A program made the position numbers and the translations under genes. Under the pieces are notes generated by a model. The model did not search any database, was not told where the DNA came from, and worked only from the letters and a program-made list of their open reading frames with translations. From positions 62,001 to 126,000 of the forward strand of contig NZ_FNFC01000008.1 in assembly GCF_900100385.1 (NCBI RefSeq): a stretch of DNA of 64,000 bases. Direction: 5' to 3'. The stretch comes from Halovenus aranensis (GTDB lineage: Archaea > Halobacteriota > Halobacteria > Halobacteriales > Haloarculaceae). Shown here one piece after another: positions 21,140 through 34,100 of this stretch. Within the stretch, counting starts at the first letter, position 1; each line of letters begins with the position of its first letter.

Positions 21140-21460
21140 TCAACTGTATCCTCGCCATCGGGTACCACACTCCTTGCATTTGAAAAATCGTGTCGGCGGT
21201 TCGTCCGCCGAGGCCGTCTGCTTGATGGTGTACCACGCCTCGTCGTGGCCACACTCGTCACAGACCACGTCGGTCGCCGTTGGCTTTCCCTCGAAGCCGG
21301 CGTCTTCGGAGGTTTCGATAAGCTCTTCGCCGGTCTGTTCTTCCGTCGAGATGAATGCCTCGGTGTCGGCCTCCTGTTCGGCGCTGGCTCCACAGTCGGT
21401 ACAGACCATGACGCCGTCTTCCTTTTTCATCATCGAGCCGCAGTCGTCACAGAACTGCAT
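21140..21460 (-). CDS. tfs: Transcription elongation factor TFS
   Basis: A 106-residue archaeal TFIIS homologue. An N-terminal zinc ribbon (CDDCGSMM...CTDCGA) and a C-terminal ribbon (CDECGHDEAWYTIKQ...FFKCKECG) are present. The acidic cleavage hairpin is intact as ADEPPTRFF, with the catalytic Asp-Glu pair. It rescues backtracked RNA polymerase by stimulating transcript cleavage. A TTTAAGAAG box 25-30 nt upstream gives it its own promoter. Confidence 0.95.
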   Translation of the reverse strand: MQFCDDCGSMMKKEDGVMVCTDCGASAEQEADTEAFISTEEQTGEELIETSEDAGFEGKPTATDVVCDECGHDEAWYTIKQTASADEPPTRFFKCKECGTRWRGYS

Positions 21461-21505: not shown

Positions 21506-22159
21506 TCACTCGTTTTGAAGCTTCTCGCGCTCTGCCACAATCGGGCAGTCGACGACCCGGACCGTCTCCATATCGAGGAACTCGACGATATCCGTTCCCT
21601 CGTGGGCACAGGCGACATCGGGCGGCGGCGAGAAGTGCTCGCACTGCTCGCAGTAGGCGTGTTTCGACACGTCCGCGAAGTTCCGGTCGTAGTTGCCCTC
21701 GGCACCGCGGGCGTCCGCGCTCGCGAGGTCTTGCCAGACCACGTCGGGGTCGATACCTTCTGTGTCGCGGCGCTCGAACAGCGAGTCGTTCTCCTCGAAG
21801 GGGTCGCCGTCCCGTTGTTCGGTATCCCCCAGTGGGTCGGCCTCGACATCCGGTCGCCGCCCGACGTCCAGGTTCATGCCGTCGCGGTCGAGGTCGTCGT
21901 CGAGCGCGGTGGTGCCGTCGTCAATGGCTTCTTGTTCGGATTCTGCCGGTTCGGGGCCCAGACTGCCGCGCGGCCCGTCTTCGAGTCCGTACTCGTCGAC
22001 CCAGTCGTCTTCTGGCTCGGCGCCGTCGGCCTGCGTGTCGTCGGCCGTCTCCGGCTCGTCGTCTTCGGGGCCTGTGTCTGAGAGCCGCTCGAAGGGGTCG
22101 CCCTCCCGGTCGGCGGCGTCGGCGTCGAGACGCTCGAATGGGTCTTCGTCGTCGCTCAT
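21506..22159 (-). CDS. Acidic protein with DPFERL repeats and a C-terminal zinc site
   Basis: 217 residues. The N-terminal 130 are highly acidic and low-complexity, with repeated DPFERL/DPFEE/LFERR motifs (residues 6-11, 21-26, 119-130). The C-terminal ~50 contain four cysteines (170, 173, 184, 205) in a CxxC...C...C arrangement likely to bind zinc. It overlaps the upstream coiled-coil gene by 4 nt. No enzymatic signature is present; an adaptor with short linear binding motifs is a reasonable inference. Function unknown. Confidence 0.75.
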   Translation of the reverse strand: MSDDEDPFERLDADAADREGDPFERLSDTGPEDDEPETADDTQADGAEPEDDWVDEYGLEDGPRGSLGPEPAESEQEAIDDGTTALDDDLDRDGMNLDVGRRPDVEADPLGDTEQRDGDPFEENDSLFERRDTEGIDPDVVWQDLASADARGAEGNYDRNFADVSKHAYCEQCEHFSPPPDVACAHEGTDIVEFLDMETVRVVDCPIVAEREKLQNE

Positions 22160-23049
22160 CGCTGCTCACCAGATTCGAGCTGGGAGGCGACGGTCAGGGT
22201 CGGGTCGCCGAACCAGCCGCTCGCGGGTTCGACGTTTGTCACCGTCGCATCACAGTGCGGGCAGTGTGGGTCGGTCAGCAGCGAGACGATGACGTTGTGG
22301 CCGCAGTTCTCGCAGTTTGCGTGCTCGATGTCCGCCCGTGCCGCGGCGCGCTTGATTCGCTCGACGGCCTCCAGCCCGCTCGATGATTGCTGTGCCTCGC
22401 GGAGGTCACTGACGACCCAGGCCACCGTCTGGAGTCGGTCTTGCATCTCGTCCAGCCGGTCGCCGTGGCTATCGAGTCGCTCACCCTGGTCCGGGACCGT
22501 CTCGTCGTAGCGCTTGCGCAGGTCTTCGAGTTCCGTCCGGAGTGTCTCGATTTCGGCGTGGAGCTGTGGGACCTCCTCCAGCTCGGTGTGGGTGTGGTCC
22601 GCGGCTGCCTTTCCGTCGGCCTCTTTTTTGAGCTGGATGACCCGCTGGCGAACGTCTTGAATTTTGTCGTCGAACTCCTCCTCGACAGTATCGATACGGC
22701 TGCCGAGCTGTCGCTGTACTCCGTTTGTCGCCTCCGTCACGCGGTCGGTCACAAGCTCCTCGACGCGTGTCTGGACAGCTTCGGCGACCGCGGCGTCGAC
22801 CTCGTCGGCGACGACCGCCTCCATGTCGTCGGCGATATTTGCCTCGACAGTCTCGGCCACGTCTTCTGTCTCGACGCGCAGCGAGTCGCCGTCTATGTCC
22901 CCCTCCAGTTGCCTGACGGCCTGATACGAAGCGAGCAGCTGGGACACCATCGTTTCCCTGTCCACGTCGGCGGCTGACGCCTCCTCGTCGAGCCAGTCGA
23001 CGAGGTCCCGCGGAAGCTCGACCGACACCGTCAGTTCCTCGCTTGCCAT
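22156..23049 (-). CDS. Ribbon-helix-helix / coiled-coil / zinc-ribbon protein
   Basis: 297 residues in three parts. Residues 1-45 are a CopG-like ribbon-helix-helix domain (LTVSVELPRDLVDWLDEEAS...). Residues ~55-235 are long acidic coiled coil. Residues 246-266 hold CxxC...CxxC (Cys246, 249, 263, 266), a zinc ribbon. This suggests a DNA-binding, multimerising scaffold. It lies 64 nt downstream of the HTR-like gene and is translationally coupled to the acidic zinc protein. I do not know a characterised homologue. Confidence 0.78.
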   Translation of the reverse strand: MASEELTVSVELPRDLVDWLDEEASAADVDRETMVSQLLASYQAVRQLEGDIDGDSLRVETEDVAETVEANIADDMEAVVADEVDAAVAEAVQTRVEELVTDRVTEATNGVQRQLGSRIDTVEEEFDDKIQDVRQRVIQLKKEADGKAAADHTHTELEEVPQLHAEIETLRTELEDLRKRYDETVPDQGERLDSHGDRLDEMQDRLQTVAWVVSDLREAQQSSSGLEAVERIKRAAARADIEHANCENCGHNVIVSLLTDPHCPHCDATVTNVEPASGWFGDPTLTVASQLESGEQR

Positions 23050-23113
23050 TACCTGATATATTCAAACCGGATAGTTAAGCGTTTGCCGTCGATATCACGA
23101 ATCGATACGGCCG

Positions 23114-23953
23114 TCACCTGATTTTCCGCACGTCGCTGATGTCGAATCCGGCCTCTCCGAGGTCGGTCTCGAACTTGACGATGTTGTCTTCTTCGAGCTG
23201 TGAGAGCACGCCTCTGAAGTTTTTGACCACCAGCGTTCGCGCTCGTGCCGAACCGCCGGTCTCCCATTGGAACTGGAGCGTGCCGGAACAGTTGTCGATG
23301 AGTTGGCCATGCTCTACCTCGTTTAGCGTCTCGAAGTTGACGTGGATAAGGATGAGCGCGCCCCACTCGTAGGCTGCCTTCGCCAGCCCTTTGGTCACAT
23401 AATTTATGTCTGTCCACTCGATATTGTCGCCGGCGGCCGCGACGAGGTCTGAAAAGGAGTCGATGATGACGAGGTTTCCGGGCGCGCGCCTGCTAACGGT
23501 GTCACCGAGTGCACTCAGCAGCGTCTCGCGGTCCTCGTGGCGTTTTCGAAGCGCGGTAATATCGGTTGTCTCATCGGCGTACCAGGAGCGCGGGACTGGA
23601 CTCCTGTGGAAGTAGTTTTGTGAGAGCGAAACGAACTCCACCTCGTCGAACCCACGGCGGCCGATTTCCGTGTCCATCGACATATCTATCTCGGCCTCGA
23701 TCTGGTCGCGCTCGTGGGTGAACGAGAGGTAATGGATTGCACCCGGAAGCGTCGCATCGGCCGCGAGGTCACCGTAATGCAGGTCGAACAGGTCGTCGCC
23801 GGTCTGTGCGAGCCCGTTCATCACCGCGGTCGTGTACAGAAACTCGCGCGCGCCAGCACCGGCCTCACCCGAGAGCAAAACGACGCTCCCGCGCGGTGCC
23901 CCGCCCCCGATTGTGCTGTCCAGTCGGTCGATACCGAAGGGAATCAGCTCCAT
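23114..23953 (-). CDS. RecA/KaiC-superfamily HTR-like protein with degenerate Walker A
   Basis: A 279-residue RecA-fold protein (LIPFGIDRLDSTIGGGAPRGSV start, typical of GvpD/KaiC-like proteins). The P-loop position reads LLSGEAGAGAREF: the GK[ST] lysine and threonine are replaced by Ala-Arg. A Walker B-like strand remains (LVIIDSFSDLV). It therefore probably does not hydrolyse ATP in the standard way and may be a structural or sensory partner. First gene of a three-gene unit; divergent from purN-purH. TATA box at 23977. Confidence 0.85.
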   Translation of the reverse strand: MELIPFGIDRLDSTIGGGAPRGSVVLLSGEAGAGAREFLYTTAVMNGLAQTGDDLFDLHYGDLAADATLPGAIHYLSFTHERDQIEAEIDMSMDTEIGRRGFDEVEFVSLSQNYFHRSPVPRSWYADETTDITALRKRHEDRETLLSALGDTVSRRAPGNLVIIDSFSDLVAAAGDNIEWTDINYVTKGLAKAAYEWGALILIHVNFETLNEVEHGQLIDNCSGTLQFQWETGGSARARTLVVKNFRGVLSQLEEDNIVKFETDLGEAGFDISDVRKIR

Positions 23954-32648: not shown

Positions 32649-33278
32649 TCAGGCGATGTCCCGGCTGGTGTCGATAGAGACCTGGTCGATGAGTTCGAGC
32701 TTGATCGTGTCAGACGGCGCGCGACCGCCCCGGAACTTCGGAATCGAGAGCCTGTTTTCGACCTCGTCGCCGTTGATATTCGTTTCGAGGTGGAATATCA
32801 CGTCTGCGAAGTGTTCGGTCGTGTCCCGCAGCGGCGGCGTCGACCGGCCTTCGAGACAGTGGAGTATCGCCATGCTGTTCGTGTTGAAGATGTGGTTCTG
32901 GAGGTCGTTCATGAAGCTCCGGAACCGGGAGGGCGGCTCCTGTGATTCGAGCACGTCGAGCGGGTCGACGATGAGATTCGAGGTCTCGGGGAGAGCACTC
33001 ACTAGCTTCCCGGCGTTGTCGAGGGGAGCCTCTCCCGAGATGTGTCGCACGGTCGGGTCGCCGGTCTCGGCCGGCGTGTTCTCGATGCTATCTCTGACGG
33101 CCTCGCCGGTCCGGTTCAGCGACAGCCAGAGCGTGCCCCGCGTCGCGGTCAGCTCGTAGAGAAACAGCTCGGCCTGACTGGCCGGACTCGCCGACAGCGC
33201 GACGATACTACCGGCTGGGATACCGCCGTCGAGCTTCCGGTCGAGTACGTCAATTCCGGTCCGCAGCCGGTCTGTCAT
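32649..33278 (-). CDS. RecA-superfamily HTR-like protein lacking Walker A
   Basis: A 209-residue protein starting MTDRLRTGIDVLDRKLDGG, the typical opening of KaiC/RadA-like domains. The P-loop position reads IVALSASPASQAELF, with neither the glycines nor the lysine of Walker A. A strand like Walker B is present (SNLIVDPLDVLE). It is probably a non-catalytic RecA-fold protein. The ATG at 33278 is preferred over a longer frame because a TATTTAAC box sits 27-35 nt upstream. A MinD/ParA-like ATPase is 58 nt upstream on the same strand. Confidence 0.8.
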   Translation of the reverse strand: MTDRLRTGIDVLDRKLDGGIPAGSIVALSASPASQAELFLYELTATRGTLWLSLNRTGEAVRDSIENTPAETGDPTVRHISGEAPLDNAGKLVSALPETSNLIVDPLDVLESQEPPSRFRSFMNDLQNHIFNTNSMAILHCLEGRSTPPLRDTTEHFADVIFHLETNINGDEVENRLSIPKFRGGRAPSDTIKLELIDQVSIDTSRDIA

Positions 33279-33304
33279 CCACTGTGTGGTTACACACACC
33301 TACC

Positions 33305-33336: not shown

Positions 33337-34017
33337 TTACCGCCCCCTGTACGTCCGGCGTCGTGGCTCGCCAGTACTCCCGGGCGGGTACACAGACGCG
33401 GCGACTGTCTGGAACACGTCCGTGACCTGGTCGTCTTCGAGTGGTGCATCCACGGACGGAATCTCACCCAGAACGGTCCACTCCGGCCGGAGGCGACTGC
33501 GCGGCGCGCCGGCCCGGCCCCCAGTCGTCTCGGGGTCGCTGCGACGGACGACGACGCCGGTGACGGTAGTCGACAGCCGACGCGCAATCTGGCGGGTCGT
33601 CTCTGCGTCTTCGATGCACTGTGGCTGGTTGGTCGAAACGACGACAGCCCGCTCTGCGTGCCGGAGCGGCGTGACGGCGTCAGGGTTCGTTCCGGCACCG
33701 CAGTCGACGAGTATCGGACCGTCCCACTGTCGCGCCCGCCCCAGCGCGGTGTCCAGAGCTCGTCTGCGCCCTCCCTGGACGACATGCACGCCGGGGAGGG
33801 AATCTGCACCCGTCGCTACCGCTCGGAGCGGCCGACCGCGGGCGAGAGCGTCCACGCCATCGCCTCGTGGCATATCCAGCCGGTGGTGAACGTCGGGCAT
33901 ATCACAGTCACCGTCGATGACCAGCGGCTCCGCGCCGCGCCTGCCGAGTGCGGCGGCCAGCCCGAGCGTTGTCGTCGTCTTTCCACAGCCACCTTTGCCG
34001 CCTGCAATTGCGAGCAT
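33337..34017 (-). CDS. MinD/ParA-family ATPase
   Basis: A 226-residue protein with the deviant Walker A MLAIAGGKGGCGKTTTTLGL including both lysines, VIDGDCDMPDVHHRLD (Walker A'), and ILVDCGAGTNPDAVTPL for Walker B. Switch residues resemble the MinD/ParA group that dimerises on ATP and positions complexes or DNA at membranes or nucleoids. The amphipathic membrane-targeting tail of MinD is not evident. Cargo is unknown; the downstream degenerate RecA-fold protein is a candidate partner. Confidence 0.87.
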   Translation of the reverse strand: MLAIAGGKGGCGKTTTTLGLAAALGRRGAEPLVIDGDCDMPDVHHRLDMPRGDGVDALARGRPLRAVATGADSLPGVHVVQGGRRRALDTALGRARQWDGPILVDCGAGTNPDAVTPLRHAERAVVVSTNQPQCIEDAETTRQIARRLSTTVTGVVVRRSDPETTGGRAGAPRSRLRPEWTVLGEIPSVDAPLEDDQVTDVFQTVAASVYPPGSTGEPRRRTYRGR

Positions 34018-34100
34018 GCGGGGACTGGTGCCGGCATATGGTATGAACTCCGGGGCTGCTCGGTACGACAACACAGGACAGGTCGAGGCGGTGTCGGAGA

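Follow-up and report, generated by a model that had tools for sequence, protein, structure and literature searches.

A KaiC-like protein with a predicted dead ATP-binding site co-occurs with CirB in haloarchaea and is probably linked to pili

The window analysed here, 64,000 nucleotides of Halovenus aranensis contig NZ_FNFC01000008.1 (positions 62,001–126,000), contains a run of minus-strand genes that starts with a gene for a KaiC-like protein, which we call P1. P1 (23114–23953) is encoded by a 279-residue open reading frame, has the KaiC/ArlH fold and contains a dead Walker A sequence, GEAGAGAREF, which makes it an inactivated KaiC (iKaiC). The next protein, P2 (22156–23049, minus strand, 297 residues), consists of a variable start resembling a ribbon-helix-helix (RHH) domain, a coiled coil and a CxxC...CPxC zinc ribbon. 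P3 (21506–22159, minus strand, 217 residues) is acidic and mostly disordered, with DPFE(R) motifs and a C-terminal cysteine domain; its open reading frame shares a 4-bp overlap with that of P2. These three reading frames are present as given in a preliminary description of the DNA, which missed the fourth gene of the run, encoding a Tfs2-like transcription factor S (21140–21460, minus strand). The most stable partner of P1 is neither P2 nor P3 but cirB, a gene outside the window.

By its sequence, P1 is a KaiC-like protein with a permanently lost ATP-binding site. GEAGAGAREF stands in the window protein where G-x4-G-K-[ST] is expected, and none of 135 homologues, which come from haloarchaea as well as from other orders, has a lysine at the Walker A position, which is mostly occupied by alanine, serine or glycine. 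Therefore, the loss is old and fixed. The Walker B residue Asp165 is retained in 134 of the 135 homologues, and it is near-invariant together with Gly32, Gly34, Glu37 and Phe38. Since the loop residues are conserved despite the loss of the lysine, the loop must have been kept for another reason. Measured against an active KaiC ATPase, P1 lacks the Walker A lysine and serine or threonine and has the Walker B aspartate. An AlphaFold model of P1 built from 29 homologues has a mean pLDDT of 84 and matches KaiC CI domains and ArlH (FlaH, 4yds) with target-normalised TM values of about 0.75–0.77. KaiC chains were also the first matches in a profile search of solved structures, and in Pfam and NCBIfam P1 falls near KaiC/ArlH, at or under the cut-offs of the named families. 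The preliminary description, which had the protein losing the Walker A lysine and keeping the RecA frame, was thus correct on both points.

P1 shares 68–91% identity with homologues from named Halovenus species and close relatives, and its C-terminal tail, GFDIS-VRKIR, is strongly conserved across haloarchaea. By position, P1, P2 and P3 are predicted to correspond to HVO_2629, HVO_2630 and HVO_2631 of H. volcanii, a run that is flanked by an HVO_2628-like gene and by Tfs2, HVO_2632 (L156 neighbourhood; loci are labelled L, genomes G, and families and genera carry the working labels f1–f40 and g1–g133). P1 resembles the inactivated KaiC domains of archaeal signalling proteins in being an inactivated KaiC-like domain; it differs from them in that it stands alone, not fused to a receiver or HalOD1 domain, and is tied to one active partner. 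Divergent dead KaiC proteins with the sequences GGIGTGYREF and GELGTGHREF, about 27–31% identical to P1, are encoded at L073 4939–5850 (G016) and L074 2299–3168 (G013); both genomes are incomplete and show no match to CirB. They perhaps form a separate subfamily.

Outside haloarchaea, P1 and an active KaiC protein are encoded as neighbours in one operon. A phylum-wide search identified full-length P1 homologues in several non-haloarchaeal families, and the neighbourhoods of 20 such loci were read. At every one of them, the next gene after that of the dead P1, on the same strand, encodes a KaiC-type protein, here called K, with a gap of -4 to +34 bp, a 4-bp overlap being the commonest arrangement; at L249 the match to K is weaker (93 bits). 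No matches to P2 or P3 were found at these loci, and both proteins have been seen in haloarchaea only. A PilB3-like T2SSE ATPase is encoded divergently upstream, on the opposite strand, in 14 of the 20 loci; these 14 belong to eight families, and in most of them the ATPase gene lies no more than 350 bp from the P1–K pair. A PilC-like protein accompanies the PilB3-like ATPase in 11 of the 20.

In the deep haloarchaeal genomes G009 (L072) and G011 (L071), P1 is likewise directly followed by K with an intact Walker A motif. The K proteins belong to TIGR03880 (KaiC_arch_3), with scores of 306.2 and 286.8 bits against a cut-off of 249.45; P1 itself gave no match to this family. In Haloferax, K is CirB, since of the two published cirB primers the forward one is a perfect match and the reverse one differs at a single position (primers from PMC3941300). 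In most haloarchaea, cirB is a separate gene located elsewhere in the genome from P1.

The two genes have stayed together in haloarchaeal genomes despite their separation. We scanned 195 genomes, 167 of which were at least 90% complete and are referred to as good. Of the good genomes, 136 contain both P1 and K, 29 contain neither, and one is discordant in each direction (phi 0.96), in tables that were built from hand-transcribed search lists, with absence calls that depend on assembly and score thresholds and with related genomes that are not independent. The control markers ArlH, for the archaellum, and CheA, for chemotaxis, follow P1 with phi values of only 0.44 and 0.28. The partition is also exact within genera: in g15, the five genomes with P1 are the five with K and the five without P1 are the five without K, the partitions of g36 and g50 agree as well, and the chance of identical within-genus partitions is 0.0007. 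A scan with NF006799 (CirC), an additional KaiC control, found no genome that reached the cut-off. The pairing of P1 with CirB is thus well supported by gene content and gene order.

The two discordant genomes differ in character. Among the good genomes, only G168 has P1 but lacks K, and its P1 is unusually divergent, with 38–42% identity in two pieces. It is possible that this P1 is decaying after the loss of its partner. The G168 protein (L077 6544–7599) is longer than usual, and the genome, which lacks CirB, has kept a PilB3 match. G165 is the only good genome with K and no P1; because its assembly consists of 360 contigs and holds P3, P1 is perhaps simply unassembled there.

Haloarchaeal CirB differs from most non-haloarchaeal K proteins of the TIGR03880 family, which are about 221–235 residues long, in having an acidic N-terminal extension. 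The extension is specific to haloarchaea and contains a conserved D-D/E-WFE motif near the start (L205–L224). The CirB of the same genome as the window carries MSEDGASDDEDWFEQGL at its likely start, which recalls the MSDDEDPFERL of P3. This likeness of DPFE and DWFE N-termini is only suggestive because DPFE is mostly limited to relatives of the Haloarculaceae. In the same set of loci (L205–L224), CirB is often encoded near NAD kinase, mptA-like and HerA/NurA-like genes. We considered whether CirB is tied to DNA repair, as HerA- and NurA-like neighbours occur in about half of the loci, and set the idea aside because the CirB neighbourhood varies.

PilB3 follows the same distribution in haloarchaea. 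A match to PilB3_N (PF23990) of at least 43 bits was found in 129 of the 137 good genomes with P1 and in one of the 30 without it (G165); the eight P1-containing genomes under this value fall short by margins that range from a few bits to several bits or more. The genus g15 shows the same five-to-five split for strong PilB3 as for P1 and K. With a full-length PilB3-like query, every haloarchaeon of the phylum sample that has P1 outscores all five that lack it, by a margin that is narrow at the boundary (2.4e-139 with P1 versus 3.3e-137 without).

Within haloarchaea, P1 has a second set of companions. Among the 80 best P1 matches, which are skewed towards Haloarculaceae, 74 named haloarchaeal loci have sufficient flank, and P1, P2 and P3 are contiguous in 69 of these. 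The end of the transcription factor S gene lies no more than 2.6 kb from the end of P1 in 53 of the 74. The preliminary description regarded P1, P2 and P3 as a unit whose co-conservation should be checked; the genes are indeed linked, but the unit is not obligate. P1 is located far from P2, P3 and transcription factor S in most genomes of f17, in parts of f4 and in several others. L069 and L070 have no P2 gene between P1 and P3. G009, G011 and L076 lack P2 as well as P3, and in L076 P1 and transcription factor S adjoin.

The coiled coil and zinc ribbon of P2, as first described, are conserved in the family alignment, and the conserved region includes the core motif DVRxRVIQVKRE-D-KAPADHDHPEL. 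The RHH domain attributed to P2 is weakly matched and variable. It is plausible in the window protein, which has a weak match to the BrnA antitoxin (E 0.0014), but RHH_1 is matched by only three of 22 P2 members, all weakly (best E 0.0056), and the RHH start is missing from at least two, L059 and L061. Other Pfam matches of P2 were mostly coiled-coil noise. Some genomes encode a second, longer P2-like protein of about 370–450 residues apart from P1, for example at L078 5467–6735.

The three DPFE motifs noted in P3 are not random, since 0.11 are expected and none of 2000 shuffles reached three. Of the 2075 proteins predicted in the locus set, 35 contain D[PW]FE motifs, and 32 of these are P3. 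The motifs are not widely conserved, being mostly limited to relatives of the Haloarculaceae. The conserved part of P3 is instead its C-terminal cysteine domain, CxxC...PP...C...CP. The N-terminal two thirds of P3 have a low-confidence structure and the AlphaFold model is poor (pLDDT 66); searches with P3 returned no fold match in the PDB at E 0.001 and no Pfam family. The transcription factor S gene matches TIGR01384 with 80 bits, above the cut-off of 64.75. Its linkage to P3 is conserved, and we treat it as a neighbour only.

Because P1 goes with CirB and often with pilus motor genes, the P1 set probably helps to control pili rather than chromosomes, as far as comparisons of sequences and neighbourhoods can indicate. 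We give about an even chance to the reading in which a dead P1 and an active CirB act together, as a KaiC pair, on PilB3-type pili, with P2 and P3 as haloarchaeal additions. The more specific proposal, that a P1/CirB hetero-oligomer is a conserved ArlH-like control module of PilB3-type pili across the archaeal phylum, rewired in haloarchaea with two new zinc proteins, is tentative and falls somewhat short of even chance.

We infer the action on pili, the physical complex of P1 and K, the direction of control and the functions of P2 and P3, and the following mechanism can be proposed. P1 would be the catalytically dead half and K, which is CirB in Haloferax, the active half of an ancient KaiC pair, and the two may assemble into a mixed oligomer of the KaiC type. 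Where a dead subunit accompanies an active one, it commonly serves for docking or regulation. In the P1–K oligomer, K would bind and hydrolyse ATP, or autophosphorylate, and P1 would serve as the non-hydrolysing docking or regulatory subunit. The module may act on the PilB3/PilC3 motor as ArlH does on ArlI/ArlJ of the archaellum; ArlH, a KaiC homologue, was reported to regulate the ArlI ATPase (PMC12488501). Ancestrally, the dead and active KaiC proteins were presumably encoded in one operon that served a PilB3-type pilus motor; outside haloarchaea this operon often lies beside pilB3–pilC3. In haloarchaea, the genes of P1 and K would have been separated, CirB would have gained its acidic N-terminal extension, and P1 would have been joined by P2, which is probably a coiled-coil scaffold with a zinc ribbon, and by P3, an acidic protein with short motifs. 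P2 and P3 may be adaptors that place or regulate the P1–K module.

Several observations weigh against an action on pili. Neither P1 nor cirB was seen beside pilB3–pilC3 in haloarchaea, and the 43-bit PilB3 threshold was picked after the list had been seen. Lineage-wise shared loss of surface genes could yield the co-occurrence without a direct link. Some P1–K loci have no adjacent PilB3 (family f21, L242), and outside haloarchaea PilB3-like ATPases are found in many genomes that lack P1; therefore, P1–K would be an optional module of such motors. The cirB knockout showed arrhythmic expression of cir genes and no growth change, and the part of that account available to us names no pili (PMC3941300).

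An alternative that we consider unlikely, yet the most serious one, is that the P1–CirB pair serves signalling or timing in general and controls transcription, with P2, P3 and Tfs2 as possible intermediaries in haloarchaea, and that the pilus genes are only one among several outputs or mere neighbours. The strongly supported P1–CirB pair itself fits this alternative, inactivated KaiC domains have been described as signalling parts (PMC5847659), and the arrhythmic expression of other cir genes after cirB deletion, according to the portion of the report we could consult (PMC3941300), the variation of the neighbouring Tfs2 with cell shape state (PMC10869688) and the P1–K loci without PilB3 agree with it. 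Against it stands PilB3, which is encoded next to P1–K in 14 of the 20 loci outside haloarchaea and tracks P1 within haloarchaea; in addition, some genomes that keep P1 and K have no P2 or have lost its RHH start. The run from P1 to transcription factor S might also be an old gene order without shared function, with co-occurrence arising from genome size or lifestyle. P2, P3 and transcription factor S stay together when P1 moves off, and P1 remains when P2 and P3 are lost, but the P1–K match is far tighter than those of the ArlH and CheA controls and exact within split genera, which makes this explanation improbable.

It is very improbable that P1 is a second, dead ArlH serving the archaellum. 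ArlH is among the fold matches of P1, and like the P1–K pair it is a KaiC-like protein tied to a type IV pilus-type ATPase and a membrane platform. The C-terminal half of P1, however, scores 46.1 bits against the ArlH family NF052589, whose cut-off is 215. P1 also has no Walker A lysine, its partner is an active KaiC, and its distribution does not follow that of the archaellum: 26 good genomes have P1 without ArlH and nine have ArlH without P1. Equally hard to credit is a chromosome-associated scaffold of P1, P2 and P3 in which P2 binds DNA, as the preliminary description had half suggested. The linkage of the three genes and the RHH-like start of the window P2 favour it, but the RHH is weak or absent in several P2 members, and P1 and K occur without P2 and P3 in other orders and some haloarchaea. 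Nothing found points to chromosomes; the sensory role offered in the same phrase was a fair guess for the KaiC family.

KaiC ATPases of arCOG01172 and arCOG01173 were noted in 2016 as possibly co-transcribed with pilus operons of Methanomicrobia (Makarova, Koonin and Albers, PMC4858521). Those loci probably overlap the P1–K loci, and the accessible portion of that paper makes no mention of a dead member, a constant pair or a split pair with CirB. We found no report of a P1–CirB pair and nothing relevant in the literature under the name HTR-like protein. As far as the literature found shows, the constant dead/active pairing and its identification with CirB are new, as are the survival of the split pair in haloarchaea, the co-occurrence with PilB3 and the addition of P2 and P3. 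Four KaiC homologues, CirB among them, have been studied in Haloferax as possible components of a clock, and the literature found names no partner or direct output for CirB. P1 is a specific candidate partner, P2 and P3 are two putative haloarchaeal accessory proteins, and PilB3 pili, adhesion and the switch between adhesion and motility offer a testable output. The comparison points to the use of a KaiC-family module by some type IV pilus motors of archaea, as by the archaellum motor, but one composed of two subunits, one of them dead. If true, a homologue of a "circadian clock" protein would acquire a concrete mechanical job.

A second KaiC-like protein with a degenerate P-loop, which matches DUF7125 (PF23442) with 274 bits, is encoded in the window at 32649–33299 on the minus strand, about 9 kb from P1, with a gene for a MinD-like ATPase just upstream (33337–34074). 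It belongs to a separate family, and the match of P1 to DUF7125 (E 0.012) is below the cut-off. In G011, a DUF7125 homologue directly follows pilB3–pilC3 (L266:10267–11043), which provides a second tie of dead KaiC proteins to PilB3 pili.
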